Below are positions 2 through 19,672 of a stretch of DNA of 64,000 bases, one piece after another (positions within the stretch are counted from its first letter, which is position 1; every line of letters starts with the position of its first letter). The stretch comes from Fidelibacterota bacterium (GTDB lineage Bacteria; Fidelibacterota; Marinisomatia; SCGC-AAA003-L08; TS1B11), in NCBI GenBank assembly GCA_004124295.1, contig SCKI01000005.1:62001-126000 (forward strand), written 5' to 3'. A model generated the notes under the pieces. That model saw only the letters and a program-made list of their open reading frames with translations, ran no database searches and had not been told where the DNA came from. A program made the position numbers and the translations under genes.

Positions 2-331
2 TTGGCGCCGGCCGAGAAAACCGCTCTGAAGCTGTCGGTGTATGAGTGCGGCGAGGAGGTTGAAGGGCCGGCCTGGATACAGTTCAACATTCGGTTTTAC
101 GTTATCGCCCTGATATTCCTGATATTTGATGTGGAGGTTGTGCTGCTGTTCCCCTGGGCCGTCGTATTCAAGGATCTCGGCTGGGTGGCCTTCATCGAAA
201 TGCTCATTTTTCTGGGAATCCTGACGGTCGGCCTGGTGGCGGTTTGGAGCCGCCGGGACCTGGATTGGGTGAAGATGAAGGTGCCCTACGGGCAGGGGCG
301 CTACGCCAAGTTGCGCGGGTCGGCAGAATAA
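2..331 (+). CDS. nuoA: NADH-quinone oxidoreductase subunit A, complex I copy 1 (5' end cut by window)
   Basis: Small membrane subunit of complex I at the junction of the peripheral arm and proton-pumping arm. The frame is open to the left edge, so the first transmembrane helix and true start lie outside the window. What remains shows the family signature [10 protein letters not shown], then the [15 protein letters not shown] helix with its conserved acidic residues, then a third helix. The order A-B-C-D-H-I-J-K-L-M-N follows directly. A second, complete nuoA is at 12084. Family assignment is secure; only the start is missing. Confidence 0.95.
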
Positions 332-376: not shown

Positions 377-871
377 ATGGCTCTTTCCCTTGTGCATAAA
401 TTTGACCAGGACAACGTCATTGTCGAGAAGCTCGACAACCTGCTTAACTGGGCCAGGTCCAATTCGCCCTGGTTTTTCCAGTTCGGCCTGGCCTGCTGCG
501 CCATCGAAATGATGGCCGCCGCTGCCCCGCGCCACGACCTGGAGCGGTTCGGCGCCATGCCCCGGGCCTCACCCCGGCAGTCGGACGTGATGATCGTGGC
601 CGGTACGGTGACCATGAAAATGGCCACCCGCATCAAACGGCTCTACGAGCAGATGGCCAATCCGAAGTACGTGATATCCATGGGCAGTTGCGCCAACAGC
701 GGCGGACCCTACTGGCAGTACGGCTACCACGTGCTCAAGGGGGTCGACCTGGTGGTGCCGGTCGATGTCTATGTGCCCGGCTGCCCGCCCCGGCCGGAAG
801 CGCTGATCCAGGGCATCAACGAGCTGCAACGCCAGATCAGGGAAGAAACGCCCCTGCGGAAGGTCTCCTGA
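377..871 (+). CDS. nuoB: NADH-quinone oxidoreductase subunit B, copy 1
   Basis: Carries the N2 iron-sulfur cluster, the last electron carrier before quinone. The 164-residue protein shows the cluster ligands: adjacent cysteines at residues 40-41 (ACCAIEM), the MGSCANSGG motif, and the [11 protein letters not shown] motif near the C-terminus. Length is normal. ATG start with a purine-rich stretch (CGAGGA) just upstream. It lies between nuoA and nuoC in the operon that lacks nuoEFG. It is clearly a different gene from the nuoB at 12440, with different sequence throughout. Confidence 0.97.
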
Positions 872-896: not shown

Positions 897-1388
897 ATGG
901 ATCTTCAAAGCATAGTTAAATCGGTGCGCGGGGCCCAACCTGAGGCCCTGGTGGCGGATGCTGCCCAGGAAGAGCACCTGGAGCTGACCCCTGACCGCTG
1001 GCGGGAAGTGGCCCGGCACCTGATCGATGACGCCGATCTCCAATTCGACGCGCTGATGTGCCTCTCGGGCTATGATGAGGGGCCGGAGGGGAGCCTGGCG
1101 GTGATCTACCACCTGTTCTCCATGCAGCACAAACACAAGCTGGAAGTGCGCATCAAGGTGCCCCGGGACGGTGGCAGCCTGCCCAGCGTCGCCGACATCT
1201 GGCGGACGGCGGACTGGCACGAGCGGGAGGCTTACGACCTCTTCGGCATGACCTTCGAGGGGCATCCCGATCTGCGGCGCATTCTGCTGCCCGATGACTG
1301 GGAGGGGCACCCCCTTAAAAAGGATTATCTGACGCCCGACTACTACCGGGGCATCCCGGTGCCCAAGGACAAGCGCGGCTGGGAATGA
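897..1388 (+). CDS. nuoC: NADH-quinone oxidoreductase subunit C, copy 1
   Basis: 30-kDa-type subunit of the peripheral arm that supports NuoD near the quinone site. The 163-residue protein has the diagnostic block from DIWRTADWHEREAYDLFG to [14 protein letters not shown] and ends with a basic-aromatic tail. Its last 4 bases overlap the start of nuoD, which suggests translational coupling. NuoC is not fused to NuoD here, unlike in Escherichia coli. Confidence 0.95.
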   Translation: MDLQSIVKSVRGAQPEALVADAAQEEHLELTPDRWREVARHLIDDADLQFDALMCLSGYDEGPEGSLAVIYHLFSMQHKHKLEVRIKVPRDGGSLPSVADIWRTADWHEREAYDLFGMTFEGHPDLRRILLPDDWEGHPLKKDYLTPDYYRGIPVPKDKRGWE

Positions 1389-2533
1389 CGGCGACCGACA
1401 GCAAATCGTCCAATTTCGGCGTGGTGGAAACCGAGGAGATGGTGCTCAACATGGGGCCCCAGCACCCCAGCACCCACGGCGTCCTGCGGCTCAAGATCCG
1501 CACCGACGGCGAAATTGTCACCCACATCGAACCGCACCTGGGCTATCTCCACCGCTGCTTCGAGAAGCATTGTGAAAACCTCTCCTACGAGCAGGTGATT
1601 CCCTTTACCGACCGCTGTGACTACCTGGCATCCATGGCCAACAACCATATCTATGCCCTGGGGGTGGAGCAGATGATGGGGCTGGAGGTGCCCGACCGGG
1701 TGGAGTACATCCGCATCATCATGGTCGAGCTCCAGCGCATCGCCAGCCACCTTATGGGGGTCGGCACGTTCGGCCTTGATGTGGGCGGCATCACCCCCTT
1801 TACCTACTGCTTCCGGGACCGGGAACGGGTCCTCGACCTGTTCGAGTACACCTGCGGCGCCCGGCTGCTGTACAACTATATATGGATCGGCGGCCTGTCC
1901 CACGATCTGCCGGAGAATTTTGTGCAGTACGCCAACGAGTTCCTGGACTACTTTGAGCCCAAGATCGACGAGTATAACCGCATCCTGACCTACAATAAAA
2001 TTTTCATCGAGCGCACCGGCGATGTGGGCGTGCTGCCGGCGGATGTGGCGATCAGTTACGGCTGCACCGGTCCCGTGCTGCGGGGCTCGGGGGTCAGCTG
2101 GGACCTGCGCAAGAATGAGCCCTATTCCATTTACGACCGCTTCGAATTTGACACGGTGCTGGGGACCGGCGAAATGGGCACCCTCGGCGACTGCTGGGAC
2201 CGCTACTTCGTGCGCATCCAGGAGATGCGCGAGAGCATAAAGATCGTGCGCCAAGCCCTGGCCCAACTGCCCGAGGGGGATGTCTTTGAGGCGCTGCCCA
2301 AGAAGGTCCGGCCGCCGGAAGGGAGCATCTACTTCCGGGGCGAAAGCCCCCGCGGCGAACTGGGCTACTTCATCGTCAGCGACGGAAAGAACGTTCCCTA
2401 CCGGGTGAAGATGCGTTCGCCGGCCTTCTGCAACCTGTCGGTGATCAACGAGATTGGCGCCGGCTGGATGATTTCCGACATCGTCACAATCCTGGGGAGC
2501 CTCGATATCGTGCTGGGTGAAATCGACCGGTGA
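1385..2533 (+). CDS. nuoD: NADH-quinone oxidoreductase subunit D, copy 1
   Basis: 49-kDa-type subunit that forms the quinone-binding cavity with NuoB. The 382-residue protein has the N-terminal PQHPSTHGVLR loop, whose His is a quinone-site residue in the family, and the C-terminal IVTILGSLDIVLGEIDR end typical of NuoD. No gaps or missing blocks. Overlaps both nuoC upstream and nuoH downstream by 4 bases (ATGA and GTGA junctions), consistent with coupled translation. Confidence 0.97.
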   Translation: MTATDSKSSNFGVVETEEMVLNMGPQHPSTHGVLRLKIRTDGEIVTHIEPHLGYLHRCFEKHCENLSYEQVIPFTDRCDYLASMANNHIYALGVEQMMGLEVPDRVEYIRIIMVELQRIASHLMGVGTFGLDVGGITPFTYCFRDRERVLDLFEYTCGARLLYNYIWIGGLSHDLPENFVQYANEFLDYFEPKIDEYNRILTYNKIFIERTGDVGVLPADVAISYGCTGPVLRGSGVSWDLRKNEPYSIYDRFEFDTVLGTGEMGTLGDCWDRYFVRIQEMRESIKIVRQALAQLPEGDVFEALPKKVRPPEGSIYFRGESPRGELGYFIVSDGKNVPYRVKMRSPAFCNLSVINEIGAGWMISDIVTILGSLDIVLGEIDR

Positions 2534-3654
2534 CCTCTTTCACCGATTCCCTCACCGGCTGGTTCAATGGCCTGACCTGGCTACCGGATATGAGCCCCGC
2601 CATTGTGGCCGTCTTTGTGGCGGGGATACTGGCCCTGGCGGTGTTCACGTTCATGAGCCTCAACGCCCTGGTAGCGGTCTACTTCGAACGCAAGGTGTCG
2701 GCCTTCATGCAGGACCGGCTGGGGCCGATGGAAGTGGGCATCTTCGGCTTCAGGGGGGGCAAGAAATTCTGGGGCGGCATCGGGCAGACCCTGGCCGACG
2801 CCATCAAGTTGCTTGGCAAGGAAGACACCATCCCGGCGGATGCGGACAGGCCGCTGTTCATCCTGGGTCCCTTCATACTGTTTGGGGCCGCCTTTACCGC
2901 CTTCATCGGTCTGCCCATCGGTTGGGGCATGGTCATTTCCGATTTCAACATCGGCGTCTTTTTTATCACCGCCATCACTTCGGTGGGGGTCATCGGCATC
3001 ATCCTTTCCGGCTGGGCCTCCAACAACAAGTGGTCGCTGTACGGGGCCATGCGCTCGGCGGCGCAGATCATCAGCTACGAGCTGCCCCTGGGCATGTCGC
3101 TGCTGCTGGTGGTGATGGTGGCCGGCAGCCTGCAGTTTTCCGATATCGTGCAGTGGCAGGAGGACAATCGCTGGTTCATCATCCACAGCCCCTTTACCGT
3201 GGTGGCCTTTATGATCTTCCTGGTTTCCGGCGTGGCCGAGGCGAACCGGACCCCTTTCGATCTGCCTGAGGCCGAGTCCGAGCTGGTGGCGGGCTACATG
3301 ACCGAGTACTCCGGCTTCCGCTGGTCGCTGTTCTTCCTGAGCGAATATGCCAGCATGGTGATCATATCGCTGATGACCGCGATCGTATTTCTGGGGGCCT
3401 GGCTGTCGCCGGTGGCCGGCATCCTGCGGATGTTCGGTGTGCCGGAGGGCTGGTACTACCTGTCGGGTCCCCTGTGGGGCCTGTTCTGGCTGATGGGGAA
3501 GGTGGCCTTTCTGATTTTCACGATGATGTGGTTCCGCTGGACGTTCCCCCGCCTGCGCCCGGACCAGCTGATGTACACCGCCTGGAAAGTTTTTTTGCCC
3601 TTCGCCCTGGCGAATATCTTCTTCGTCGGCTTGTGGGAACTGCTTTTAGCATAG
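2530..3654 (+). CDS. nuoH: NADH-quinone oxidoreductase subunit H, copy 1
   Basis: Multi-helix membrane subunit that links the quinone cavity to the proton channels. The 374-residue protein contains the family blocks ERKVSAFMQDRLGPMEVG, EANRTPFDLPEAESELVAGY and WFRWTFPRLRPDQLM. GTG start overlapping the nuoD stop as GTGA. About 30 residues longer than the second copy at 18089, mainly in the loop after GPMEVGIFGFRGGKKF and in the last periplasmic loop. It follows nuoD directly, so nuoE, nuoF and nuoG are absent from this operon. Confidence 0.96.
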   Translation: MTSFTDSLTGWFNGLTWLPDMSPAIVAVFVAGILALAVFTFMSLNALVAVYFERKVSAFMQDRLGPMEVGIFGFRGGKKFWGGIGQTLADAIKLLGKEDTIPADADRPLFILGPFILFGAAFTAFIGLPIGWGMVISDFNIGVFFITAITSVGVIGIILSGWASNNKWSLYGAMRSAAQIISYELPLGMSLLLVVMVAGSLQFSDIVQWQEDNRWFIIHSPFTVVAFMIFLVSGVAEANRTPFDLPEAESELVAGYMTEYSGFRWSLFFLSEYASMVIISLMTAIVFLGAWLSPVAGILRMFGVPEGWYYLSGPLWGLFWLMGKVAFLIFTMMWFRWTFPRLRPDQLMYTAWKVFLPFALANIFFVGLWELLLA

Positions 3655-3673: not shown

Positions 3674-4933
3674 ATGAGCGCATATTTCAGAAATATCGGC
3701 GTGGCAATATTATCCCTGGTGGACGGCATGCGGGTGACCCTGTGGCACTTCCGCAACAAGCGCACGCTTAACGCCACCCTGCAGTATCCCCGTGAAAAGT
3801 GGCCCATCCCGGAGCGCCACATCGGGTTCGAGGAGACCCAGTACAATGTGATCCGCTCCCGGCTGCATGTCGATATCGACGATTGCATCGGCTGTCTGCA
3901 GTGCGAGCGGGTCTGCCCGGTGGACTGTATCAAAATCGAGACCATCAAAGTGCCCAAGGAGATGGAACTGGGCACGATCCCCCACTCGACCCAGCCCAGC
4001 GCCACTTCCGGCGGAACGGCCAAGAAGCTGCTGGTGGTGCGCTTCGACATCGACATGGCCGAGTGCTGCTACTGCAACCTGTGTATCTACCCCTGCCCGG
4101 AGGAATGCATCTACATGGTGGGGGGCCCCAACGCGGACAAGCACGAGATCGATTACGAATTTTCCGTCAGCGACCGCAACGCCCTGGTGTACGAATTCGC
4201 CAGCGCCACCGATGAGGAGGTAACCGAGCTGGCCAAGGTGGTGGGCACGTCCGATCCCCGGGCCAAGCGCCGGGAACGCCGCGAGGCCGAGCTGGCCAAG
4301 GTTGCTCCCATGGCCGAGGCGGTGGATGTGGTGACCACCCCGGAGGCCGCAGCCGAAGTGGCCGCCAAGCCGAAGAAGAAGGCCATCACCGAGCCGAAGA
4401 TTGATATGACCGCCCTGGGCGAAATCGGCGACCGGGTGGCCCGGGGCCTGGCCAAGAAGGCCGCCATGGCGGCGGTGCGGGCCGGCAACGAGGCCCCCGC
4501 GGCGGCCGAGGCGGTAAAAGCAGCCCTGGAAAAGGCCGAAAAATGGGATCCGGATTACGAAGCTGCGCTGGCCAATCTGGCGGCCGCCACCATCGAGAAG
4601 CCCGGGGATGCGCCAGAAGCGGCGGCCGAGCCAGCCCCGGAGGCTGCCACCGCGGAAGCAGCGCCGGCCACGGAAGCCACTACCCCGGAAGCGGCTGATA
4701 CTGCTACGCCGGCAGCCCAAGAGGCCCCCCAGGCCAAGGCCGGGGTCGACCTGACTGTCCTCAACGGCATCCCCGACCGGGTGGCCCGGGGCAAAGCCAA
4801 GGCGATCCTGAACAAGATCACCCGCCAGGGCGGCTCCCCCAAAGAGGCCGCCGGAGAGATCCGGGCCACCTTGGAAGGGTTGGGCAAACTGGACAGCGAC
4901 ACCGAGGCCATCCTGGCCGAGCTGGAGGCCTAG
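3674..4933 (+). CDS. nuoI: NADH-quinone oxidoreductase subunit I with long C-terminal extension bearing two 62-residue repeats, copy 1
   Basis: Ferredoxin-like subunit carrying clusters N6a and N6b. Both four-cysteine motifs are intact: CIGCLQCERVCP and CYCNLCIYPCP. A normal NuoI is about 160-180 residues, as in the copy at 19139; this one is 419. After residue 200 comes an Ala/Lys/Glu-rich linker, a 62-residue domain (243-304), an Ala/Pro/Glu-rich linker, and a second 62-residue domain (358-419) that ends the protein. I count 28 of 62 positions identical between the domains, with a shared DRVARG-x-AK core. The tail is in frame, has no internal stop and keeps the repeat, so it looks selected, not a read-through error. 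Its function is unknown; I infer a docking or assembly role. Confidence 0.93.
   Translation: MSAYFRNIGVAILSLVDGMRVTLWHFRNKRTLNATLQYPREKWPIPERHIGFEETQYNVIRSRLHVDIDDCIGCLQCERVCPVDCIKIETIKVPKEMELGTIPHSTQPSATSGGTAKKLLVVRFDIDMAECCYCNLCIYPCPEECIYMVGGPNADKHEIDYEFSVSDRNALVYEFASATDEEVTELAKVVGTSDPRAKRRERREAELAKVAPMAEAVDVVTTPEAAAEVAAKPKKKAITEPKIDMTALGEIGDRVARGLAKKAAMAAVRAGNEAPAAAEAVKAALEKAEKWDPDYEAALANLAAATIEKPGDAPEAAAEPAPEAATAEAAPATEATTPEAADTATPAAQEAPQAKAGVDLTVLNGIPDRVARGKAKAILNKITRQGGSPKEAAGEIRATLEGLGKLDSDTEAILAELEA
4400..4930 (+). repeat. Pair of protein-level repeats in the NuoI tail (4400-4585 and 4745-4930)
   Basis: Two stretches of exactly 62 codons encode related domains. Shared positions include D-x-T-x-L near the start, DRVARG-x-AK, an AA pair in the middle, LE, and a D-x-D-x-EA-x-LA-x-L-x-A end. 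They are joined by a linker of about 53 residues made almost only of Ala, Pro, Glu and Thr. The second copy ends at the stop codon. I do not recognise the domain from any family. Confidence 0.85.
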
Positions 4934-4938
4934 CGACT

Positions 4939-5433
4939 TTGGCGGAGTTCGGCTTCACCGGCATCGCCGCCCTGGTTATCGCCAGCTCCTTCTGGGTGGT
5001 CACGGCCCGGAACCTGGTCCATGCGGCGGTGGCCCTGATGGGCACCCTGTTCGGCGTGGCCGGCCTGTATGTCTACCTGTATGCCGACTTTTTGGCTGCC
5101 ACCCAGGTGATAATCTACGTGGGCGGCATCCTGGTGCTGATTATTTTCGGCGTGATGCTGACCCAGCGGATCAGTTCGGCGGTGTTGCTCCAGACCCATA
5201 TGCCCAACCGGCCGCTGGCCGGCGTGGTGGTCTTTTTCCTGTTCATGGGCCTGACGTCGCTGCTGTTCCGCACCCCCTGGCACGAGGGCGAGCAGGTCAT
5301 GCCCGAGAGCACGGTGACCATCATCGGCACCTCGCTGCTGACAAAATATCTGCTGCACTTCGAGGTGGCCTCGGTGCTGCTGCTCGTCGCCCTGCTGGGC
5401 GCGGCCTATCTGTCGCGGAGAGAAGATGGATAG
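4939..5433 (+). CDS. nuoJ: NADH-quinone oxidoreductase subunit J, copy 1
   Basis: Membrane subunit of complex I. The 164-residue protein has five predicted helices and the family block ATQVIIYVGGILVLIIFGVML. The start is TTG at 4939, five bases after the nuoI stop; a GGAGG at the end of nuoI (4924-4928) can serve as ribosome binding site. Its end overlaps nuoK by 8 bases. Copy 2 is at 19669. Confidence 0.93.
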   Translation: MAEFGFTGIAALVIASSFWVVTARNLVHAAVALMGTLFGVAGLYVYLYADFLAATQVIIYVGGILVLIIFGVMLTQRISSAVLLQTHMPNRPLAGVVVFFLFMGLTSLLFRTPWHEGEQVMPESTVTIIGTSLLTKYLLHFEVASVLLLVALLGAAYLSRREDG

Positions 5434-5737
5434 CCTGCAGTCATACCTGTTTATCAGCATTGTCATGTTCTGCCTCGGGCTATACGGGGTCATGACCCGC
5501 CGCAACGGGGTGGCCATCCTGATGGGGATCGAGCTGATCCTCAATTCGGCGAACCTGAACTTTGTGGCCTTCAACCGCTTCGGGGGGCTGGGCGAGCACC
5601 TGCCGGGCCATGTGTTCGCCCTGTTCGTCATCGTCATGGCCGCATCCGAGGCGGCGGTGATGCTGGCTATCATCATTAACCTCTACAAGAACTTCCAGAC
5701 CGTCAATGTGGACGAAGCCCACGAGATGAGCGGCTAG
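5426..5737 (+). CDS. nuoK: NADH-quinone oxidoreductase subunit K, copy 1
   Basis: Three-helix membrane subunit related to MrpC. The 103-residue protein has the conserved in-membrane acidic positions in GIELILNSANLNFVAF and the AASEAAVMLAIIINLYK helix. Length is standard. It overlaps nuoJ and ends two bases before nuoL. Confidence 0.95.
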   Translation: MDSLQSYLFISIVMFCLGLYGVMTRRNGVAILMGIELILNSANLNFVAFNRFGGLGEHLPGHVFALFVIVMAASEAAVMLAIIINLYKNFQTVNVDEAHEMSG

Positions 5738-5739
5738 CC

Positions 5740-7812
5740 GTGGACATCCGCAGCACGTTCGCCCTGCTCATTCTCTTTCTGCCGCTGGCCTCCTTTGTCC
5801 TGCAGATATTTTTCGGCCGCCGGTTGGGGCCCAAGGGGGTCTGGATTTCAGTGGCGGCGCTCTTCGCCACCCTGATCCTGGCGGCCAGCATGCTGGCGAC
5901 GGTGGTCCTGGGCACCCCCATGGACCACCACCCGGAGGTGGAGTGGTTCAGTATCGGCGATTTCAGTATCACCCTCGGCTTCCAGCTCGACAACCTGGCC
6001 GTGACCATGCTGGTGATCGTGGCCCTGATCTCCTCGCTGGTGCACCTCTATTCGGTGGAATACCTGCGCGGTGATGTCCGCTACACCCGCTATTTCGGCT
6101 ACCTGGGCCTGTTCACCTTTTCGATGAACGGTATCGTGCTGGCCCACAGCCTGATCATGATGTACATGTTCTGGGAGCTGGTGGGGCTGAGCTCCTACCT
6201 GCTCATCGGCCACTGGTTCGAGAAGGACTCCGCGGCCAGCGCCGGCAAGAAGGCCTTCCTCACCAACCGGGTGGGGGACATCGGCATGTTCATCGGCATC
6301 ATGCTGTTCTGGTCGGTCACCGGCACGTTCACTTTCCACGGCCTGTATGAACTGGTGGACGTGGACGGGGCCAACCTTTTCGCCGGACAGATGGGCCTGC
6401 TGTCGCTGGCCGGAGGGCTGGTGTTTGTGGGCGCGATGGGGAAATCGGCCCAGTTCCCGCTGCATATCTGGCTGCCCGACGCCATGGAAGGCCCCACGCC
6501 GGTGTCGGCCCTGATCCATGCGGCCACGATGGTGGCTGCCGGGGTCTACCTGACGGTGCGCCTGTTCCCCATCCTGACCCCCGCCGCACTGCTGTTTGTG
6601 GCCACCATAGGCGCCATTACGGCCGTGCTGGGGGCGCTGATTGCCATCACCCAGGTTGACATCAAGCGGGTCCTGGCCTATTCCACCATCAGCCAGCTCG
6701 GCTATATGGTGATGGCGGTCGGTCTGGGCGCCCAACAGGCCGCCTTCTTCCACCTGGCCACCCACGCCATGTTCAAGGGACTGCTGTTCCTCTGCGCCGG
6801 GTCGGTGATCCATGCCCTGCATCACGCCCTTAAGCAGCGGAACGACCACGAAACGGATGCCCAGGATATGCGCAATATGGGCGGCTTGCGCTCAAAAATG
6901 CCCATCACCTGGATCACCATGGTCATCGGCGCCCTGGCCATATCGGGCGTGCCGCTGTTCTCGGGCTTCCTGAGCAAGGACGCCATCCTGGCCGGTACCC
7001 TGGCCTTTGCCGGCGAGAACTCCGCCTGGTGGGCCGTGCTGTTTCCCATCGCCGGATTCGGGGCGGCGGCCATCACCGCCTTTTACATGTTCCGGCTCAT
7101 CTTCATGACCTTTCACGGCAAACCGGCCGATGCGGCGGTCCACGCGCATGTCCATGAGTCGCCACCGGCGATGACCGGACCGCTGGTGCTGCTGGCGGCG
7201 CTCAGTTTTGCCCTGTTCTTTACCCTGCCCCAGGTCAATCCGCTGAATTCGGAGGGCTGGCTCACCGAGGCCCTGCCCCAGGTTGAAAACCTCACCGGCC
7301 ACGCCGATCTGGGGGTGGAGCACCTGGAACACGGCTGGCACGAGGCCCACGATACGGCGGTGAATCTATCCCTGACCGTGGCCGGAGGGGGCATCCTGCT
7401 GGCGGTGCTGGTCTACCTGCTCAGCCTGATCAACGCGGCTGCCATCGCCCGGCAGTTCCGGCGGGTGGGGCTGTACCAGCTATCGTTCTACAAATTTTAC
7501 TTCGATGAGATTTACGACGCCCTGATTTACCGGCCGTTCCTCTGGCTGACGGAGGTGGTGGCCTGGCTCGACTGGAACTTCTGGGACCAGTGGTTCATCG
7601 ACGGTTTGGGGCGTAATACGGTCCGGGGAGGCAATGCCTCCGGTTGGCTCGACTACGTCTGGCTCGACCAGTACCTCGTCGACGGCATCGGCCGGCTGAC
7701 CCAGCGCATCGGCGCAACCGGACGCAAACTGCAGAGCGGCAGGGTCCAGAACTACCTCATGTGGGCCCTGGCCGGAGGCATGATTGTCTTTTTCGTGGCA
7801 AGCCAGTTGTGA
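5740..7812 (+). CDS. nuoL: NADH-quinone oxidoreductase subunit L, copy 1
   Basis: Largest antiporter-like proton channel of complex I, at the far end of the membrane arm. The 690-residue protein shows the channel Glu in FWELVGLSSYLLIG and the channel Lys in MGKSAQFPLHIWLPDAM, followed by GPTPVSALIHAATMV. The C-terminal third contains the long amphipathic-helix region and a final anchor helix. GTG start. Copy 2 at 20480 is about 50 residues shorter. Confidence 0.96.
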   Translation: MDIRSTFALLILFLPLASFVLQIFFGRRLGPKGVWISVAALFATLILAASMLATVVLGTPMDHHPEVEWFSIGDFSITLGFQLDNLAVTMLVIVALISSLVHLYSVEYLRGDVRYTRYFGYLGLFTFSMNGIVLAHSLIMMYMFWELVGLSSYLLIGHWFEKDSAASAGKKAFLTNRVGDIGMFIGIMLFWSVTGTFTFHGLYELVDVDGANLFAGQMGLLSLAGGLVFVGAMGKSAQFPLHIWLPDAMEGPTPVSALIHAATMVAAGVYLTVRLFPILTPAALLFVATIGAITAVLGALIAITQVDIKRVLAYSTISQLGYMVMAVGLGAQQAAFFHLATHAMFKGLLFLCAGSVIHALHHALKQRNDHETDAQDMRNMGGLRSKMPITWITMVIGALAISGVPLFSGFLSKDAILAGTLAFAGENSAWWAVLFPIAGFGAAAITAFYMFRLIFMTFHGKPADAAVHAHVHESPPAMTGPLVLLAALSFALFFTLPQVNPLNSEGWLTEALPQVENLTGHADLGVEHLEHGWHEAHDTAVNLSLTVAGGGILLAVLVYLLSLINAAAIARQFRRVGLYQLSFYKFYFDEIYDALIYRPFLWLTEVVAWLDWNFWDQWFIDGLGRNTVRGGNASGWLDYVWLDQYLVDGIGRLTQRIGATGRKLQSGRVQNYLMWALAGGMIVFFVASQL

Positions 7813-7863: not shown

Positions 7864-9432
7864 ATGGCATCTTCCGTACTGACCATTCTCGTTTTTCTGC
7901 CCGTAGCCGGCGCCCTGGCCATGCTCTTTTTGCCCAAGGACAAGGCCGATCTGTTCAAATGGATCGCCCTGGGGGCCACCGGGCTGCAGCTGCTGGTTGC
8001 CCTCTGGCTGCTCGGCACATTCGACCGCAGTGCCGTGGGCATGCAGTTCACCTTCATGGCCGAGTGGATACCCTCTTTCAACATCTTCTACCATGTGGGG
8101 GTGGACGGCCTCTCCATGCCGATGGTCTTATTGACGGCCCTGTTGTCGTTCCTGGCGATCCTGACCAGCTGGAACATCACCAAGGCCCCGCGGGGTTACT
8201 TCAGCCTGTTCCTGCTGCTGGACGCCGGCATGATGGGGGTTTTCGTATCGCTCGATTTTTTCCTGTTCTACATGTTCTGGGAAGTGATGCTGCTGCCCAT
8301 GTATTTCCTGATCGGCATGTGGGGCGGACCCCAGCGCCAGTACGCCGCCATCAAGTTTTTCCTGTACACCCTGTTCGGCTCGGTGCTGATGCTGCTGGCC
8401 ATGCTGGCACTCTATTTTTACACCGAACCGCACACCTTCAACCTGATCATCCTTATCGAGCAGGCCCGCCATATTGATGTGCAGTTGTGGGGTGTTGACA
8501 TGCGCTGGCTCATCTGGCTGGCCCTGTTCATCGGTTTCGCCATCAAGGTGCCCATATTCCCCTTCCACACCTGGCTCCCGCTGGCCCATGTGGAGGCGCC
8601 GACGGCCGTATCGGTGATCCTGGCCGGCGTGCTGCTGAAGATGGGCACCTACGGTCTGCTGCGGATCAGCTTTCCCCTGCTGCCGGCGGAGGCGGTCTAC
8701 TTTGCCTACATGCTGGCCCTGTTGGGGGTGATCAACATCATCTGGGGGGCGGCCAACGCCATCGCCCAGGTCGACCTGAAGCGCATGGTGGCCTATTCAT
8801 CGGTGAGCCACATGGGTATTGTGCTGCTGGGCATGTCGGCTATCGTCAGCACCAACCGGGGTGGCGCCGAAGCGGGCTTGAACGGAGCCGTGCTGCAGAT
8901 GTTCAACCACGGCATCATCACGGCCATGCTCTTTATGCTGGTGGGGGTCCTCTATGACCAGGCCCACCACCGCTTTATCGTCTATCCCAAGGATTACGAG
9001 GACGAATCGCTACGGGGCAAGCTCGGCTTCGGCGGCCTGGCCGGCCACCTGCCCATTTTTACCGCCTTTACGGCGGTGGCCTTTTTTGCCGGCCTGGGAC
9101 TGCCGGCCCTGTCCGCCTTTGTCAGCGAGCTGATGTCGTTCATCGGCGGCTTCTCCGCCTTCCGGACCCTCACCATCATCGCCACCATCGGCATACTGCT
9201 GAATGCCACCTACTTCCTGCGGGCCTTCCAGCGCATTTTCCAGGGGCCGGCGAACGAAAAGTGGGCCTCTCTGAAAGACTTGTCCGGGCGTGAGATTGCC
9301 ATGCTGACGCCGTTGCTGGTGCTGATCATAGGGCTGGGTGTTTACCCCCGGCCGGCCCTGGAAATTATTGCCGTGACTATGGGCGAGTTGATCGACCTGG
9401 TGCAGGCCGTGATACCGCTGGCGGCACGGTAA
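7864..9432 (+). CDS. nuoM: NADH-quinone oxidoreductase subunit M, copy 1
   Basis: Antiporter-like proton channel. The 522-residue protein has the channel Glu in FWEVMLLPMYFLIG, the channel Lys in FAIKVPIFPFHTWLP, and HVEAPTAVSVILAGVLLK. It starts 51 bases after nuoL. It is followed not by nuoN but by a small four-helix-bundle gene and repeats, after which nuoN resumes the operon. Confidence 0.96.
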   Translation: MASSVLTILVFLPVAGALAMLFLPKDKADLFKWIALGATGLQLLVALWLLGTFDRSAVGMQFTFMAEWIPSFNIFYHVGVDGLSMPMVLLTALLSFLAILTSWNITKAPRGYFSLFLLLDAGMMGVFVSLDFFLFYMFWEVMLLPMYFLIGMWGGPQRQYAAIKFFLYTLFGSVLMLLAMLALYFYTEPHTFNLIILIEQARHIDVQLWGVDMRWLIWLALFIGFAIKVPIFPFHTWLPLAHVEAPTAVSVILAGVLLKMGTYGLLRISFPLLPAEAVYFAYMLALLGVINIIWGAANAIAQVDLKRMVAYSSVSHMGIVLLGMSAIVSTNRGGAEAGLNGAVLQMFNHGIITAMLFMLVGVLYDQAHHRFIVYPKDYEDESLRGKLGFGGLAGHLPIFTAFTAVAFFAGLGLPALSAFVSELMSFIGGFSAFRTLTIIATIGILLNATYFLRAFQRIFQGPANEKWASLKDLSGREIAMLTPLLVLIIGLGVYPRPALEIIAVTMGELIDLVQAVIPLAAR

Positions 9433-12083: not shown

Positions 12084-12449
12084 ATGATCGGCGACTATCT
12101 GCCGATCCTGTTTGTCTTTCTGCTGGCGGCCGGATTCGCCCTGGGCGCCCTCGGCCTGACCCATGTGGTCGGCCCGCGCATCAAGACCCGCGTGAAGCTG
12201 TCGGCGTACGAGTCGGGCGTCGATCCGGTGGGGCCCACCCACAGCCGTCTCAATGTGCGCTACTTTCTGATCGGCCTGGTGTTCATTATTTTCGATCTGG
12301 AGGTGGTGTTCCTTTATCCCTGGGCAGTAATTTTCAGGGAGCAGGCGGCGCAGGGCCCTTTCATCTTGTACGAGATGCTGTTTTTCCTCGTGGTCCTGCT
12401 GGTGGGTTACCTCTATATCTGGCGGAAGGGGGTGTTTGAATGGGAGTAA
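12084..12449 (+). CDS. nuoA: NADH-quinone oxidoreductase subunit A, copy 2
   Basis: Complete 121-residue subunit with three helices; signature [13 protein letters not shown] followed by [22 protein letters not shown]. The frame is open upstream into the thioesterase gene, but ATG at 12084, preceded by GGGGAGCGG, gives the normal N-terminal helix and length. The usual family Cys in the YECG motif (present in copy 1) is Ser here. It overlaps nuoB by 10 bases and opens a full 14-subunit operon. Confidence 0.95.
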
Positions 12450-12946
12450 AGCAGCCCCAGTCGGCTGATTGGGTGACGACCCGGGTAGACAGCCTGGCCA
12501 ACTGGGCCCGCAAGAATTCGCTCTGGCCGATGCCGTTCGGCACCGCCTGCTGCGGTATCGAGTTCATGTCGGTGATGACCTCCCGGCACGATCTGGCCCG
12601 GTTTGGCGCCGAGGCGATCCGTTTTTCGCCCCGCCAGTCGGACCTGCTGATTGTGGCCGGCCGCATCAGCATCAAGATGATGCCGGTGCTGACCCGCATC
12701 TACGAGCAGATGCCGGAGCCCAAATGGATCATCTCCATGGGGGCCTGCGCCTCCAGCGGCGGGGTCTTTGACACCTATAGCGTGATCCAGGGTATCGACC
12801 GGTTCCTCCCGGTGGACGTCTATCTGCCCGGCTGTCCGCCCCGCCCCGAGGCGATTCTGGATGGCTTGATCAAGATTCAGCAACTCATCGAGCGGGACTC
12901 GCTCAGCCACTATCCGGCCCCGGCCGAAACCGAGCCGCTCAGCTAA
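12440..12946 (+). CDS. nuoB: NADH-quinone oxidoreductase subunit B, copy 2
   Basis: N2-cluster subunit, 168 residues. Ligand motifs are [19 protein letters not shown] and [11 protein letters not shown]. The segment [22 protein letters not shown] is of the common bacterial type, whereas copy 1 has [16 protein letters not shown]. The two complexes therefore carry clearly distinct NuoB proteins. Confidence 0.97.
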
Positions 12947-12950
12947 GCCC

Positions 12951-13493
12951 ATGCTGCAGGCCGACCTGATACCGACCGTGATGCAGGACCGTTACCAGAA
13001 CGATTTCCTGGGCATTACCGATTTCCGGGGCATGGTGACCATCAATATCCGCGGCGCCATCGTTCTGGATGTGCTGCGGATGATGAAGACCGATCCCCGC
13101 TTTGCCTGCAATTTTCTGGCCGACCTGACGGCCGTGGACCATCTGTTAAAGGGTGGCCATGCCCGGTATTCGGTGGTCTACCACCTGCTGAACCAGTACG
13201 ACGCGCTGCGCATCGTGGTGCAGGCCTGGGTGGATGAGGAGGCGCCGAGCCTCGCTTCGGTTGCGGCCCTCTGGCGCACCGCCGATTGGCAGGAGCGCGA
13301 AGTTTACGATCTGTTCGGCATCGAATTCGAGGGCCACCCCGATCTGCGCCGCATTCTCAATCCCGACGATTATAAGGGCCACCCCCTGCGCAAGGACTAT
13401 CCTCTGCAAGGCCGGGGCGAGCGCGATGACTTCCCGGTGGTGGAGCGCAGCATCGGCAGCAAATGGCCCACTGGACAGGCCGGCTTTGAATAA
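12951..13493 (+). CDS. nuoC: NADH-quinone oxidoreductase subunit C, copy 2
   Basis: Peripheral-arm subunit of 180 residues with [21 protein letters not shown] and [20 protein letters not shown]. Separate gene, not fused to nuoD. Its N-terminal 90 residues differ strongly from copy 1. Confidence 0.95.
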
Positions 13494-13523
13494 CTTTCCG
13501 CAGCCCCTCAGCCTGGCAGCCGC

Positions 13524-14723
13524 ATGACCCTGGAAGCCCAGCCCCTCATCACCGAGCCGCTGATACTCAATTTCGGGCCGTCGCACCCGGCCACCCACGG
13601 CACCCTGCGGGTGATCATGGAGCTCGACGGTGAACTGGTCACCAAGGTGACAGCGGAGATCGGCTACCTGCACTCCGGCTTCGAGAAACTCGGCGAGCAT
13701 CTGGATTACAACCAGTACATCACCATCACGGACCGGATGAACTATATGTCGCCCATGTGCAACAATGTTGCTTTTGCCCTCGCGGCTGAGCAGCTGCTGG
13801 ACCTGGAGGTGCCCCTCCGGGCGCAATACCTGCGGGTGCTGATGTGCGAATTCTCACGCATCGCCGACCACCTGCTGTGTGTTGGCATGCAGGCCGTTGA
13901 CGTTGGCGCCTTTACCGTCTTCTTGTATGGCTTCCGCATGCGGGAGCAGATTTACGACCTGTTTGAACTGGTCTGCGGCTCCCGGCTCACCACCAGCTAT
14001 ACCCGGGTGGGCGGGCTGATGCGTGACCTGCCCGATGGCGCCATACCGCTGGCGGCCTACCTCATTGAGGAAATCCCCAACACGCTGCGGGAGATCGACG
14101 GACTGCTCAGCCACAACCGCATCTGGCTCGACCGGACCCGGGGCATATCGCCCATCAGTCCCGAGCAGGCCATCAGCTATGGCCTTAGCGGCCCCCTGGC
14201 CCGGGCCTGCGGTGTCGACTACGATATCCGGGTCAAGGAGCCCTACTCGGCCTACGGCGACTTCGACTTTGACGTGATCATCGGCAAGGACGGGGACGTT
14301 TACGACCGCTACATCGTGCGCCTCCACGAGATGTGGGAAAGTTTGAAAATCTGCCGGCAAGTGCTGGAAAAGCTGCCTGGCGGCCCGGTGAATGTGGACA
14401 CCGATTCCAAGGCCATCCTGCCCCCGCCGGACGAGGTGTTCAACTCCATCGAAGGGCTGATCTATCATTTTGAACTGACCATGGAGAACCGCGGCTTTGA
14501 GCCCCCCGTCGGCGACAGCTACGTGCCCACCGAATCGCCCAACGGCGAACTGGGCTTCTATATCGTCAGCGACGGCGGCCGCGAGCCGTACCGGATCCGG
14601 ACCCGGCCACCTTCGCTGATGAACTATTCGATATTCGAGGAACTGGTGCCGGGGCTGATGGTGTCGGATGTGGTGGCGGTGCTCGGCAGCATGAACATCA
14701 TTGCCGGGGAGCTGGACCGGTGA
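13524..14723 (+). CDS. nuoD: NADH-quinone oxidoreductase subunit D, copy 2
   Basis: Quinone-site subunit, 399 residues, with PSHPATHGTLR near the N-terminus and the VVAVLGSMNIIAGELDR end. The conserved interior is complete. It ends in a 4-base GTGA overlap with nuoE, typical of coupled translation in this operon. Confidence 0.97.
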   Translation: MTLEAQPLITEPLILNFGPSHPATHGTLRVIMELDGELVTKVTAEIGYLHSGFEKLGEHLDYNQYITITDRMNYMSPMCNNVAFALAAEQLLDLEVPLRAQYLRVLMCEFSRIADHLLCVGMQAVDVGAFTVFLYGFRMREQIYDLFELVCGSRLTTSYTRVGGLMRDLPDGAIPLAAYLIEEIPNTLREIDGLLSHNRIWLDRTRGISPISPEQAISYGLSGPLARACGVDYDIRVKEPYSAYGDFDFDVIIGKDGDVYDRYIVRLHEMWESLKICRQVLEKLPGGPVNVDTDSKAILPPPDEVFNSIEGLIYHFELTMENRGFEPPVGDSYVPTESPNGELGFYIVSDGGREPYRIRTRPPSLMNYSIFEELVPGLMVSDVVAVLGSMNIIAGELDR

Positions 14724-15193
14724 GCTTCGCCTTTGATGCCCCCCGCACCAAGCGCTTCAAGGCCCTCGTGCGCCAATATCCCGACAGGCGCTCGCTGGCC
14801 CTGCCCCTGCTGCACATGGCCCAGGATCAGGAGGGCCACATCTCCCGGGATGTGCTGCTGGCCTTGGCGGAAATGCTGAAGATCTCCCCGGCCGAACTCT
14901 TCGATACGGTATCGTTCTACAGCATGTTCAACCTCGAGCCGAAAGGGAAATACCTGCTGCAGGTCTGCCAGACCCTCTCCTGCAGTCTGGCCGGGGCCGA
15001 CCTGGTGGTGGATCACATCGGGGCGAAGTTCAAGCTCAAGCCGGGCGAAACCACGGCGGACGGCCGGTTCACCCTGCTGAAGGTGGAATGTCTCGGCTCC
15101 TGCGGGACGGCCCCGGTGGTGCAGATCAACGACGATTACTACGAAAAAATGACCGTGGACAAGGTCGGCCGGGTACTGGAAAAGCTGTCGTGA
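14720..15193 (+). CDS. nuoE: NADH-quinone oxidoreductase subunit E
   Basis: 24-kDa-type subunit that carries the N1a 2Fe-2S cluster next to NuoF in the NADH module. The 157-residue thioredoxin-like protein has the four ligands in CQTLSC and ECLGSCG. GTG start overlapping the nuoD stop. Together with nuoF and nuoG it makes this complex an NADH oxidase; the first operon lacks all three. Confidence 0.95.
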   Translation: MSFAFDAPRTKRFKALVRQYPDRRSLALPLLHMAQDQEGHISRDVLLALAEMLKISPAELFDTVSFYSMFNLEPKGKYLLQVCQTLSCSLAGADLVVDHIGAKFKLKPGETTADGRFTLLKVECLGSCGTAPVVQINDDYYEKMTVDKVGRVLEKLS

Positions 15194-16491
15194 AGCGTTA
15201 CCAGCCCATCCTGACCAAGTACCTTGACGAACCGGGCTCGGCCACCATCGATTTTTACCTGGTGCATGAGGGTTACAGGGCTGCCCGGAAGGCGATCCTG
15301 GAGATGGACGCCGGGGAGATCATCGAGGAAGTCAAGGCGTCCGGGCTGCAGGGCCGGGGAGGGGCCGGTTTCCCGGCCGGCGTAAAGTGGGACTTCATTC
15401 CCAAGAACTCGAAGAAACCGACCTACCTGATCAACAACGCCGATGAAAGCGAGCCGGGCACTTTCAAGGACCGCCTGCTGATGAACCACAATCCCCACCA
15501 GATGCTGGAGGGGATGATTATTGCCAGCAAGGCCATTGGCTGCCACCTGGCCTTCATCTATATCCGGGGCGAATTCGTAAAGGAAGCCCGGCTGCTGGAG
15601 ACGGCCATCGCGGAGTGCCGGGCCAACAACATTCTGGGCAAGGGCATCTTCGGCAGCGACTACAATCTGGAGATCGTCGTCCATCGCGGGGCCGGGGCCT
15701 ACATCTGCGGCGAGGAGACCGGCCTGATCGAATCGCTGGAGGGCAAGCGGGGCTGGCCGCGCATCAAGCCCCCCTTCCCGGCCATCGAGGGCTATCTCAA
15801 GTCCCCGACGGTGGTGAACAATGTCGAGACCCTCTGCAACCTGCCCCATATCCTGAACGAAGGGGCCGCTTGGTTCCGCAAGATCGGCGCCAGCAAGGAG
15901 AGTCCCGGTCCCAAGCTGTACTGCCTCAGCGGCGGAGTGCAGAAACCGGGCGTCTATGAGGCCCCCCTGGGTACCCTGCTGGAGACCCTGATCTACGACT
16001 TCGCCGGCGGCATCGCGGACGGCCGGGAGCTGAAGGCGGTGATCCCCGGCGGCAGCTCGGCGCCCCTGCTGAAGGCCGACGAGATCGAGGGGCTGAAGAT
16101 GGACTTCCCCTCGGTGAAGGCCGCCGGGAGCATGCTCGGCTCGGCCGGAATCATCGTGCTGGACGATACGGTGGACATGGTGCAGGCCTGCTATAATCTG
16201 GCCCGTTTCTATGCCCATGAATCGTGCGGCCAGTGCACCCCCTGCCGGGAGGGGACCACCTGGCTCACCAAGATATTGGCCCGCTTCACCGCCGGCCAGG
16301 GACGGCTCGAGGACCTCGACCTGATCCTGGAAGTGACCGACAACATCGGCGGCCTGATCGACTTCTCGCAGGGCAGCTTCGGCAAGACCATCTGTCCCTT
16401 CGGCGAGGCGGTGGCCTGGCCGGTGCGGGCCTTCGTGGAAAAATTCCGGGCCGAGTTCGAGGCCTATCTGCCCCGGGAGGCGCTGGCCTGA
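15190..16491 (+). CDS. nuoF: NADH-quinone oxidoreductase subunit F
   Basis: NADH- and FMN-binding subunit with cluster N3. Residue blocks: GRGGAGFPAGVKW (FMN/NADH loop), YICGEETGLIESLEG, and the 4Fe-4S ligands C346, C349, C352 (SCGQCTPCREG) and C402 (TICPFGEA). I chose GTG at 15190, which overlaps the nuoE stop as GTGA and gives 433 residues; the frame remains open further upstream, but that part has no resemblance to NuoF. Confidence 0.95.
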   Translation: MKRYQPILTKYLDEPGSATIDFYLVHEGYRAARKAILEMDAGEIIEEVKASGLQGRGGAGFPAGVKWDFIPKNSKKPTYLINNADESEPGTFKDRLLMNHNPHQMLEGMIIASKAIGCHLAFIYIRGEFVKEARLLETAIAECRANNILGKGIFGSDYNLEIVVHRGAGAYICGEETGLIESLEGKRGWPRIKPPFPAIEGYLKSPTVVNNVETLCNLPHILNEGAAWFRKIGASKESPGPKLYCLSGGVQKPGVYEAPLGTLLETLIYDFAGGIADGRELKAVIPGGSSAPLLKADEIEGLKMDFPSVKAAGSMLGSAGIIVLDDTVDMVQACYNLARFYAHESCGQCTPCREGTTWLTKILARFTAGQGRLEDLDLILEVTDNIGGLIDFSQGSFGKTICPFGEAVAWPVRAFVEKFRAEFEAYLPREALA

Positions 16492-18092
16492 TGCCCCTGC
16501 TCAAGATAGATCATCAGGAACTGGAGGTGGCGGCCGGCAGCCAGGTGCTGGAGGCGGCCCTGGCGGCCGGGATCGAGATTCCCCACTATTGCTACCACCC
16601 CGCCCTGTCGGTGGTGGGGAGCTGCCGCATGTGCATTGTGGAAGTGGAAGGGATGCCCAAGCTGCAAACCGCCTGCTCGACCCCCATCGGCGAGCTGCCG
16701 GCGGACCGGAAGGTGGACGGCAAGTACGATATGGTGGTGCACACCGAGTCGGAGAAAGTGGTGGCGGCGCGCAAGCTGATGCTGGAATTCCTGCTGCTGA
16801 ACCACCCCCTCGACTGCCCGGTCTGCGACCAGGCCGGCGAGTGCTTTCTGCAGGACTATTCCTTCAAGTACGGCAGCGCCCACAGCCGCTTCATCGAGGA
16901 GAAGCGGGTCCGGCCGGCGGAGGATTTGGGCAGTGGCGTGGCCATCAACCATGACCGCTGCATCATGTGCACCCGCTGCGTCCGCTTCACCCGGGAGATT
17001 ACCGGTACCGACGAACTTTTTGTAATGGACCGGGGCTATTCCAATAGAATCGCCGTTTTCGACGGCCTGCCCCTGGACAATCCCCTGGCCGGCAACGTGG
17101 CCGACATCTGCCCGGTGGGGGCCCTGCTGCTGAAGGACTACATGCACACGACCCGGGTCTGGCACCTGTCCCACACCGAATCGGTCTGCAACGAGTGCGC
17201 CAGCGGCTGCAGCATCACCGTGGATGCCCGGGATAACAAGATATACCGTATCATCAGCCGGGAAAATCCCCAGGCCAACGGCTACTTTATCTGCGATTAC
17301 GGCCGCTACAGTTTCCACAAATATGCCGACAGCCCGCTGACCAGGCCCCTCCAGCGGACCAAGGACGGCTGGGAGATGATCGACTGGGACACGGCCTATC
17401 GCCAGGTGCTGGAGCAGGTGCAGGCGACCGGCGGTAAAGGGGCGGTGCGGGCCCTGGCCTCACCCACTTTCCCCAACGAACCGAACTTTGTGCTGGGGCA
17501 GTTCATGGCCCGGCTCAGCGACCGCAAGAACATCGCCCTGTTGCCCACGCTGAAAGAGGACGACCAGGAGTTCCCCGGCGGCTTCCGCATCAGCGGCGAA
17601 AAGGGGGGCAACCTGCGGGGCGTACAGGCGATGGTACCGGGGCTGGCCGCAGCCATGAAATCGCTCATGCGGGGGGAGCCGGGCGTGCTCATCGCCCTGG
17701 ACGGGGACGGCCGGGCGCACCTTACGGGAGAGCTGAAACGGCTGCTGGAGCTGGTGGCCTTCAAGGTGGTGGTGGCCAGCATGCCTTCGGATCTCACCGC
17801 CCAGGCCGACCTCGTGCTGCCGGTGGCCACCCCTTACGCCCGGGAAGGGACCATGACCAACGACAAGGGACTCGTGCAGTGGCTGCAGCCGGCCCTGCAT
17901 CCGGCCGGCGAGGTGCGCCCCGACTGGCAGGTGATCGCCGAACTGGGCCAGCTGCTCACCGGCGAAGGGCACCTGTACACCTGTGCCGGAGACGTGACCT
18001 GGAAAATCAACCAGACCACGCCCGGCTACAGCCAGATCACCCGCTTCCGCCTGGGCCGGACCGGGCAACTGAGCGGCAGCGAGGCGGCATGA
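16491..18092 (+). CDS. nuoG: NADH-quinone oxidoreductase subunit G, short form
   Basis: Iron-sulfur subunit that passes electrons from NuoF towards NuoI. N-terminal 2Fe-2S ligands lie in GSCRMCIVEVEG and TACSTP; then the His-Cys cluster region NHPLDCPVCDQAGEC, the CIMCTRCVRF plus ADICPVG cluster, and a further CNECASGC motif at the start of the molybdopterin-like domain. At 533 residues it is far shorter than the roughly 900 of Escherichia coli because most of the molybdopterin-like domain is missing. ATG at 16491 overlaps the nuoF stop (TGATG). Confidence 0.93.
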   Translation: MPLLKIDHQELEVAAGSQVLEAALAAGIEIPHYCYHPALSVVGSCRMCIVEVEGMPKLQTACSTPIGELPADRKVDGKYDMVVHTESEKVVAARKLMLEFLLLNHPLDCPVCDQAGECFLQDYSFKYGSAHSRFIEEKRVRPAEDLGSGVAINHDRCIMCTRCVRFTREITGTDELFVMDRGYSNRIAVFDGLPLDNPLAGNVADICPVGALLLKDYMHTTRVWHLSHTESVCNECASGCSITVDARDNKIYRIISRENPQANGYFICDYGRYSFHKYADSPLTRPLQRTKDGWEMIDWDTAYRQVLEQVQATGGKGAVRALASPTFPNEPNFVLGQFMARLSDRKNIALLPTLKEDDQEFPGGFRISGEKGGNLRGVQAMVPGLAAAMKSLMRGEPGVLIALDGDGRAHLTGELKRLLELVAFKVVVASMPSDLTAQADLVLPVATPYAREGTMTNDKGLVQWLQPALHPAGEVRPDWQVIAELGQLLTGEGHLYTCAGDVTWKINQTTPGYSQITRFRLGRTGQLSGSEAA

Positions 18093-19117
18093 GCGGATTC
18101 GATATCGCCGCCGCCCTGGTGAAAGTGCTGCTGGTCTTCGGCGTGACCATGCTCACCATCATGCTGATGACCCTGGCCGAGCGCCGCGTATCGGCTTTCA
18201 TGCAGTACCGGCTGGGACCGAACCGGGTCGGTTTTGGCGGCTTGCTGCAACCGCTGGCAGACGGCCTGAAATTTCTGCTGAAGGAAGACATCATCCCCAC
18301 GCAGGCCAACCGGCCCATCTATCTGCTGGCGCCGGTGATAGTGATGGTGCCGGCCCTGATGACCATGGCGGTGATTCCGTTCGGGGCGCCGCTGCAGATC
18401 GGTGAGCACCTGGTGCCGCTGCAGGTCGCTGACCTGAATATCGGCGTGCTCTACATCCTGGCCCTGACCTCCGTGGGAGTTTACGGGCTGGTGCTGGCCG
18501 GCTGGGGCTCGGGCAGCAAGTATCCGCTGCTGGGAGGGCTGCGGGCCTCGGCCCAGCTGATCAGCTACGAGCTGGCCATGGGGCTGTCCATTATCGGCGT
18601 GGTGATGCTCACCGGCGGCCTCACGTTCGGCGAGATCATCGCCTACCAGCAGGAGACCGGCTGGAATATCTGGAAGCAACCGCTGGCGGCGCTCATTTTC
18701 CTGATCGCCATTTTCGCCGAAACCAACCGCCTCCCGTTCGACCTCACCGAGGCGGAGCAGGAGCTGGTGGGGGGCTATCACACCGAGTATTCCAGCCTCA
18801 AGTTCGCCATGTTTTACCTCTCGGAATATGCCAATATGATCACCGCCTCCGCCTTCATGGTGAGCCTCTTTTTTGGCGGCTGGGATGTCCCCTTTGTCGA
18901 TGAGCTGGCCATGGGGGGCTGGGGTGTGGCGCTCTCGGTGCTGGCCTTCGTCGTCAAGGTCGGTTTCTTCCTGTTTTTGTACATCTGGGTGCGCTGGACC
19001 TTCCCCCGGTTCCGCTACGACCAGCTGATGCGGCTGGGCTGGAAGGTGCTGCTCCCGCTGGCGCTGGTGAATGTGGTGCTTACCGGATTCTGGCTGGTGT
19101 GGCGGGCCGGCGCCTGA
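18089..19117 (+). CDS. nuoH: NADH-quinone oxidoreductase subunit H, copy 2
   Basis: Membrane subunit of 342 residues with ERRVSAFMQYRLGPNRVG, ETNRLPFDLTEAEQELVGGY and WVRWTFPRFRYDQLM. ATG at 18089 overlaps the nuoG stop by 4 bases; the upstream part of the open frame lies within nuoG and is not used. This copy has the textbook length, unlike the longer copy 1. Confidence 0.96.
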   Translation: MSGFDIAAALVKVLLVFGVTMLTIMLMTLAERRVSAFMQYRLGPNRVGFGGLLQPLADGLKFLLKEDIIPTQANRPIYLLAPVIVMVPALMTMAVIPFGAPLQIGEHLVPLQVADLNIGVLYILALTSVGVYGLVLAGWGSGSKYPLLGGLRASAQLISYELAMGLSIIGVVMLTGGLTFGEIIAYQQETGWNIWKQPLAALIFLIAIFAETNRLPFDLTEAEQELVGGYHTEYSSLKFAMFYLSEYANMITASAFMVSLFFGGWDVPFVDELAMGGWGVALSVLAFVVKVGFFLFLYIWVRWTFPRFRYDQLMRLGWKVLLPLALVNVVLTGFWLVWRAGA

Positions 19118-19138
19118 GCGCGCCCTGAGAGCAGTCTG

Positions 19139-19672
19139 ATGGCAACGGTACAGCGCACCTACGAACCCCAGTTCTCGGACCGGTTCTACCTGCCGGCGGT
19201 GGTCCGGGGTCTGTGGATGACCTTCGTGCGCATTTTCCGCCGCAAGGATACCATCCCGTACCCCGACCGGAAATATGTTCCGGCGGACGGTTACCGGGGG
19301 CTGCAGCGGCTGAACAAGGACGCTGAAGGGCGCATCAAGTGCGTGGCCTGCGAGATGTGCCAGACCGCCTGCCCGGCCCACTGCATCACCATTGTGCCCT
19401 CACCGGCCCCCTGGGATGAGGGCGAGGAACGCTACCCGGTGCAGTTCGACATTGACCTGCTGCGCTGCATCTTTTGCGGCTTCTGCGAGCTGGCCTGCCC
19501 CAAGGAGGCCATCGAACTTACCGAGATTTACGATTATGCCAGCTACACCCGGGACGACCTGATCATCAATATGGAGGGCCTGCTGAAAGTCTACGACGTC
19601 ACCAGCCAGGGGAATATTTACAAGCGCCAGAATGAGGGCGAGTCCATTACCATCGATACGGGAAAACTGTGA
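19139..19672 (+). CDS. nuoI: NADH-quinone oxidoreductase subunit I, copy 2
   Basis: Two-cluster ferredoxin-like subunit of normal length (177 residues). Cluster motifs: CVACEMCQTACP and CIFCGFCELACP. The C-terminus is ordinary, with none of the extension found in copy 1. Overlaps nuoJ by 4 bases. Confidence 0.96.
   Translation: MATVQRTYEPQFSDRFYLPAVVRGLWMTFVRIFRRKDTIPYPDRKYVPADGYRGLQRLNKDAEGRIKCVACEMCQTACPAHCITIVPSPAPWDEGEERYPVQFDIDLLRCIFCGFCELACPKEAIELTEIYDYASYTRDDLIINMEGLLKVYDVTSQGNIYKRQNEGESITIDTGKL

Follow-up and report, generated by a model that had tools for sequence, protein, structure and literature searches.

The NuoI subunit of a complex I without NuoE, NuoF and NuoG (EFG-less) bears a C-terminal tail of two related, predicted helical domains on flexible linkers, and we put at roughly 0.5 the probability that this tail serves as a flexible, multivalent arm for recruiting acidic, low-potential electron carriers to the entry point of the complex. 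The gene lies in the window, by which we mean the whole 64,000-nucleotide stretch of DNA analysed here (Table 1), within an operon of order nuoA-B-C-D-H-I-J-K-L-M-N that contains no nuoE, nuoF or nuoG (Pfam for B to N). This operon is an 11-subunit complex I gene set, and the same gene order is found in relatives.

The direct electron donor of the 11-subunit complex I outside photosynthetic organisms was still an open question in 2024 (PMC11238625). The tail, a stripe of Arg, Lys and Arg on its domains and a natural NuoI-flavodoxin fusion provide a concrete and testable handle on this question, and, since Marinimicrobia are abundant in the ocean, its answer bears on the coupling of carbon oxidation to proton pumping there. 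The searched text of Getz et al. (2018, PMC6143742) describes a second nuo cluster of Marinimicrobia without NADH-reductase subunits, termed nNDH, and suggests donors such as flavodoxin; from that text, it is the same complex as the one encoded by the EFG-less operon of the window. It contains no mention of a tail or a flavodoxin fusion on NuoI, of a repeat motif or of an extended NuoC. Although the 11-subunit complex I is an established type, our search of the open-access literature turned up nothing on the tail domain, on the NuoC extension and its kinship with that domain, or on the fusion.

The first-pass annotation of this DNA had described a two-cluster NuoI with about 220 extra residues, a fair figure given that the core ends near residue 190 according to Pfam and is followed by some 229 residues. 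The cluster ligands are Cys 71/74/77/81 and 131/134/137/141; the match of the core to the NCBIfam NuoI model NF004537 falls below its cut-off. All eight cysteines are invariant in the sequences of 34 relatives, and both 4Fe-4S clusters are hence kept in EFG-less NuoI. The annotation had also delimited two domains of 62 residues with 28 identical positions, and this count was reproduced exactly: the two domains are equal in length and align without gaps at 28/62 identities, with a BLOSUM62 local score of 110 that none of 5000 shuffles equalled (mean 25.6, maximum 53). The linker between them, reported as rich in Ala, Pro and Glu, is indeed A/P/E/T-rich, with a pI of about 4.05, and the paralogue noted at 19139 proved to be tail-less. 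A search of the whole genome detected two copies of the domain, both in the NuoI of the EFG-less operon.

Table 1. Coordinates of NuoI, its parts and the two nuo operons in the window
Feature	Position	Strand	Description	Basis
NuoI ORF	3674-4933	+	419 aa	
NuoI core	3674..4243	+	residues 1-190; N-terminal helix and two 4Fe-4S clusters	Pfam Fer4_21/Fer4_7/Fer4
Inter-cluster hairpin of NuoI	3920..4063	+	residues 83-130; 48 residues; TAKK motif	loop-length comparison
Pre-tail segment	4244..4399	+	residues 191-242; a charged helix leading into a flexible linker	AlphaFold2 model
Tail domain 1	4400..4585	+	residues 243-304	profile match; AlphaFold2 pLDDT 94-98
Inter-domain linker	4586..4744	+	residues 305-357; rich in Ala/Pro/Glu/Thr	pLDDT 32-53
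Tail domain 2	4745..4930	+	residues 358-419	AlphaFold2 single-domain model; dN/dS
nuoA	2-331	+	start may be upstream	synteny and similarity
nuoB	377-871	+		Pfam
nuoC	897-1388	+	no N-terminal extension	Pfam
nuoD	1385-2533	+		Pfam
nuoH	2530-3654	+		Pfam
nuoJ	4939-5433	+		Pfam
nuoK	5426-5737	+		Pfam
nuoL	5740-7812	+		Pfam
nuoM	7864-9432	+		Pfam
nuoN	10024-11511	+		Pfam
Second operon	12440..19672	+	nuoB2, C2, D2, E, F, G, H2, nuoI2	Pfam
Second-operon nuoE, nuoF, nuoG	14720 (nuoE), 15088 (nuoF), 16224 (nuoG)	+		Pfam
nuoI2	19139-19672	+	177 aa; tail-less	Pfam

Within the EFG-less operon, nuoM and nuoN are separated by a gene for a protein of the 23S rRNA intervening-sequence type (S23/bAvd-like; 9477-9899, + strand; PF05635, 109.5 bits), and the nuoM-nuoN gap is likewise enlarged in two relatives (L082, L083). 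A 4HBT thioesterase gene (11540-12070, + strand) follows nuoN and separates the two nuo operons.

Modelled on its own with AlphaFold2, tail domain 2 is confidently predicted to form a four-helix bundle (four helices, pLDDT 94.4, pTM 0.82). The model of full-length NuoI assigns pLDDT values of 94-98 to both domains and of 32-53 to the linkers, with a pTM of 0.40, too low to tell where the domains lie or how the tail packs against the core; in the pre-tail segment it predicts a helix at residues 195-215 and a pLDDT below 50 at 220-234. Ratios of dN/dS, which are rough because some dS values lie near or above saturation, are 0.11-0.23 for domain 2 and 0.09-0.18 for the core, and looser for domain 1 (0.24-0.65); the pre-tail segment shows 0.37-0.50. 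The linkers are 21-38% identical among relatives. These values suggest purifying selection on the folded domains but not on the linkers, which supports the docking arm. The layout, with small folded domains on Ala/Pro/Glu-rich linkers, is that of the 2-oxoacid dehydrogenase E2 core and of the CcmM SSU-like repeats; the analogy stops at layout, the tail having no sequence or fold match to PDB entries.

The conserved positions of the domain are R16 (38/40, Lys in the others), K20 (40/40) and R28 (36/40, Lys in the others), together with I10 and D12. Together they make up a basic stripe, which again supports the recruitment of acidic carriers; this is weakened by the net charges of the window's domains, -2 and -1, and by the basic part being the first half alone (median +3). 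The same stripe would suit a tail that, through a basic helix, contributes to assembly or stability or binds an anionic partner such as lipid or RNA, and that has no part in electron input. A weak profile likeness to the tRNA-binding GatB/YqeY domain (PF02637; hhalign 31% over 52 columns) points the same way, but it lies below significance, and neither the restriction of the tail to the EFG-less complex nor the flavodoxins that stand in its place in the NAT62 genome fits such a role, which we consider very unlikely. We did not adopt kinship with GatB/YqeY, for which the suggestive weak match in genomes was GatB itself (in G172), and took other weak domain matches within the window's order, to an LpxA-like protein (G180) and to a secreted protein resembling dockerin (G173), as chance. 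Pfam holds no family for the domain, with no match at E<=10 for the members scanned, and NCBIfam has none for it either. In the PDB, the only sequences matched were of designed helical or of low-complexity type, none with a domain that passed individually, and a Foldseek search of the domain model against the PDB gave nothing at E<=0.001 (best E 2.4).

To establish the distribution of the domain, 245 genomes of the phylum were searched and the search was repeated on the 41 genomes of the window's order; outside the phylum, genome contigs were scanned with patterns from full NuoI only. The named relatives of the window NuoI belong to Candidatus Neomarinimicrobiota (Marinimicrobia), the phylum to which we assign the window. 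EFG-less NuoI was recovered from 34 genomes of the order, and 31 of these carry the domain on it, in one to five copies, so that homologous tails are widespread among related genomes and the module is older than the window's genus. The three exceptions are NAT62 (G169), with two flavodoxins, G185, in which the frame is broken early, and G183, a near-complete relative (98%) that has lost the tail and thereby weakens the docking-arm reading. NuoI in the rest of the class has about 195 residues and no tail.

The first-pass claim that the tail occurs only on complex I lacking NuoEFG holds for the window and for the relatives: the tail-bearing operon contains no E, F or G gene at any locus where it is readable. 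A second operon with these genes often comes after it, and none of the relatives' NuoC2 and NuoI2 proteins examined scored for the domain, leaving no tail on a NuoI of the NADH-oxidising complex. This confinement to the complex that needs an input other than NADH supports the docking of a carrier.

The loop between the two clusters spans 39-48 residues in all EFG-less NuoI relatives and 48 in the window, against 30 in the window's NuoI2, and the EFG-less hairpins contain basic residues. Cyanobacterial and chloroplast NDH-1 is EFG-less like the window complex, and in the structure of cyanobacterial NDH-1L with ferredoxin the NdhI hairpin and NdhH bind the carrier through basic residues, hairpin lysines among them, while flexible extra parts near the site aid docking (PMC6992706). 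By sequence, the long basic hairpin that characterizes the NDH-1-type ferredoxin site is present in EFG-less NuoI, and its likeness to the NdhI hairpin supports the docking-arm reading. The extra parts of NDH-1 are separate subunits (NdhS, NdhV, NdhO and others; PMC6992706), whereas here a repeated domain is joined covalently to NuoI.

The window genome encodes a 2-oxoacid:ferredoxin oxidoreductase (KorAB-type genes) and, in a frame from 983 on the + strand of L198, a ferredoxin-like protein with a net charge of -20, both of which agree with carrier docking, and no long-chain flavodoxin was found in it. Ferredoxin is therefore more likely than flavodoxin to be the donor of the EFG-less complex in this organism, as far as gene content can indicate. 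The same oxidoreductase could itself be the docked partner, making the tail an adaptor for an alternative input module. The operon has no dedicated input gene, and Willemin et al. (2024, PMC11238625) suggest that several donors may use 11-subunit enzymes as docking platforms, but the KorAB genes are remote, on a different contig (C1), and have neither a ferredoxin nor a nuo gene nearby, and we found no redox enzyme that carries the domain, its carriers being NuoI, NuoC, an SRPBCC protein and one Cys-rich protein; docking of a whole enzyme thus seems unlikely.

A carrier-catching function is also suggested by NAT62 (G169 = L099/L026), where two flavodoxins occupy the position of the tail. Its NuoI ORF encodes 683 aa, with two complete long-chain flavodoxins directly after the NuoI core and a charged segment, and the next gene is nuoJ. 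The fused flavodoxins score 373.7 bits against TIGR01752 (cut-off 146.75), and keep the STGNS loop in both copies. They share 77% identity, against only 40-45% between either of them and the free flavodoxin of NAT62. A domain search of this genome returned no copy of the helical domain. In a tree of NuoD and NuoH, NAT62 is nested among relatives with helical tails (97% SH-aLRT for a set of 16) and is sister to L092 at 94%, and the fusion reads as a derived swap of the dock for the carrier. The fusion is known from a single metagenome-assembled genome of the 41 in the order, which weakens its weight for the docking arm, although its reading frame is unbroken and the rest of the operon follows as usual. 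In the Campylobacter-type complex I without NADH input the donor is also a flavodoxin (Weerakoon and Olson 2008, as cited in PMC6143742 and PMC12361115), there a soluble protein, whereas both flavodoxins of NAT62 are fused to NuoI.

From these elements we infer both carrier binding and an electron path. The small four-helix domains on their disordered linkers would bind soluble low-potential electron carriers, most likely a strongly acidic ferredoxin in the window organism, and the arm would raise their local concentration at NuoI, where the long inter-cluster hairpin would then receive the carrier and electrons would pass from N6a to N6b, N2 and the quinone. In NAT62, the dock would have been replaced by the carrier itself, as two flavodoxins tethered to NuoI. 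The first-pass proposal that the tail may dock a donor or an alternative input module is in this way partly borne out: the flavodoxins in tail position favor it, and their occurrence in one genome and the presence of a related motif on NuoC and an SRPBCC protein tell against it.

That motif shows that the helical module is, as judged by homology, not confined to NuoI. A 34-residue motif, of consensus LVAKALDGDMDAINAIEDRVTRGKAKAALVKAKR, corresponds to the first half of the tail domain; profile comparison (hhalign 98.2% over 26 columns) indicates that the two are homologous, and the conserved R/K/R at positions 16/20/28 of the domain fall at 22/26/34 of the motif. In sister families where NuoI has no tail, NuoC has one or two copies of the motif at its N-terminus; an SRPBCC-like protein has two to four at its C-terminus, and a distant member of the phylum (L133 = L165) has two in its NuoI tail. 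Around G138 it was found in 20 of the 25 genomes searched and, where both genes exist, is confined to NuoC and the SRPBCC protein. SRPBCC proteins are START-like and bind lipids, and one of those with the motif passes the curated Polyketide_cyc2 cut-off (L066, 28.6 bits against 27.4); those of L061, L068 and L069 score below it or do not match. The SRPBCC protein is not known to have a redox or electron-carrier role, and the presence of the motif on it is the main difficulty for the docking arm and favors a broader scaffold role.

The module could accordingly be a respiratory-chain scaffold tag, its copies on NuoI, NuoC and the SRPBCC protein binding a common partner or each other, and the tag could unite a cytochrome bc complex and a quinone-handling SRPBCC protein with complex I in one assembly. 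The shared R/K/R, the homology of domain and motif and the confinement around G138 argue for such a tag, as does the location of the SRPBCC gene in L063, L068 and L069, where genes for a Rieske protein and for cytochromes b and c adjoin it (checked with Pfam in L068). Both the tag and the single assembly are nevertheless doubtful: the neighbors of the SRPBCC gene are unrelated in other lineages, a search of the window's order for the SRPBCC protein with motif repeats was negative, the domain there is essentially restricted to NuoI, and the flavodoxin replacement is left unexplained. A tentative extension of the carrier-docking reading, less likely than not, is that a portable docking domain was put on NuoI, NuoC and a quinone-related SRPBCC protein and organizes an NADH-independent respiratory chain based on ferredoxin/flavodoxin, culminating in a complex I to which its carriers are covalently tethered.

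Several further observations concern NuoI and the domain. The long NuoI proteins of families f30 and f31 showed no folded repeat, their tails being low-complexity; those of f30 (L148, L149, L150, L154) reach 300-368 residues, with Ala/Lys-rich and then acidic sequence, and represent an independent kind of NuoI extension. Marinimicrobia-type NuoI is present in records titled Flavobacteriaceae or Patescibacteria (L101, PACY01000057.1; L105; L110), probably through mislabelled bins or transfer. The only clear carrier of the tail domain other than NuoI in the window's order is a 233-aa Cys-rich protein of G156 (L072, 5537-6235, - strand), which has no Pfam match and contains one copy. The longest helical tail found, with five tandem domains, is on the NuoI of G181 (L070/L089).
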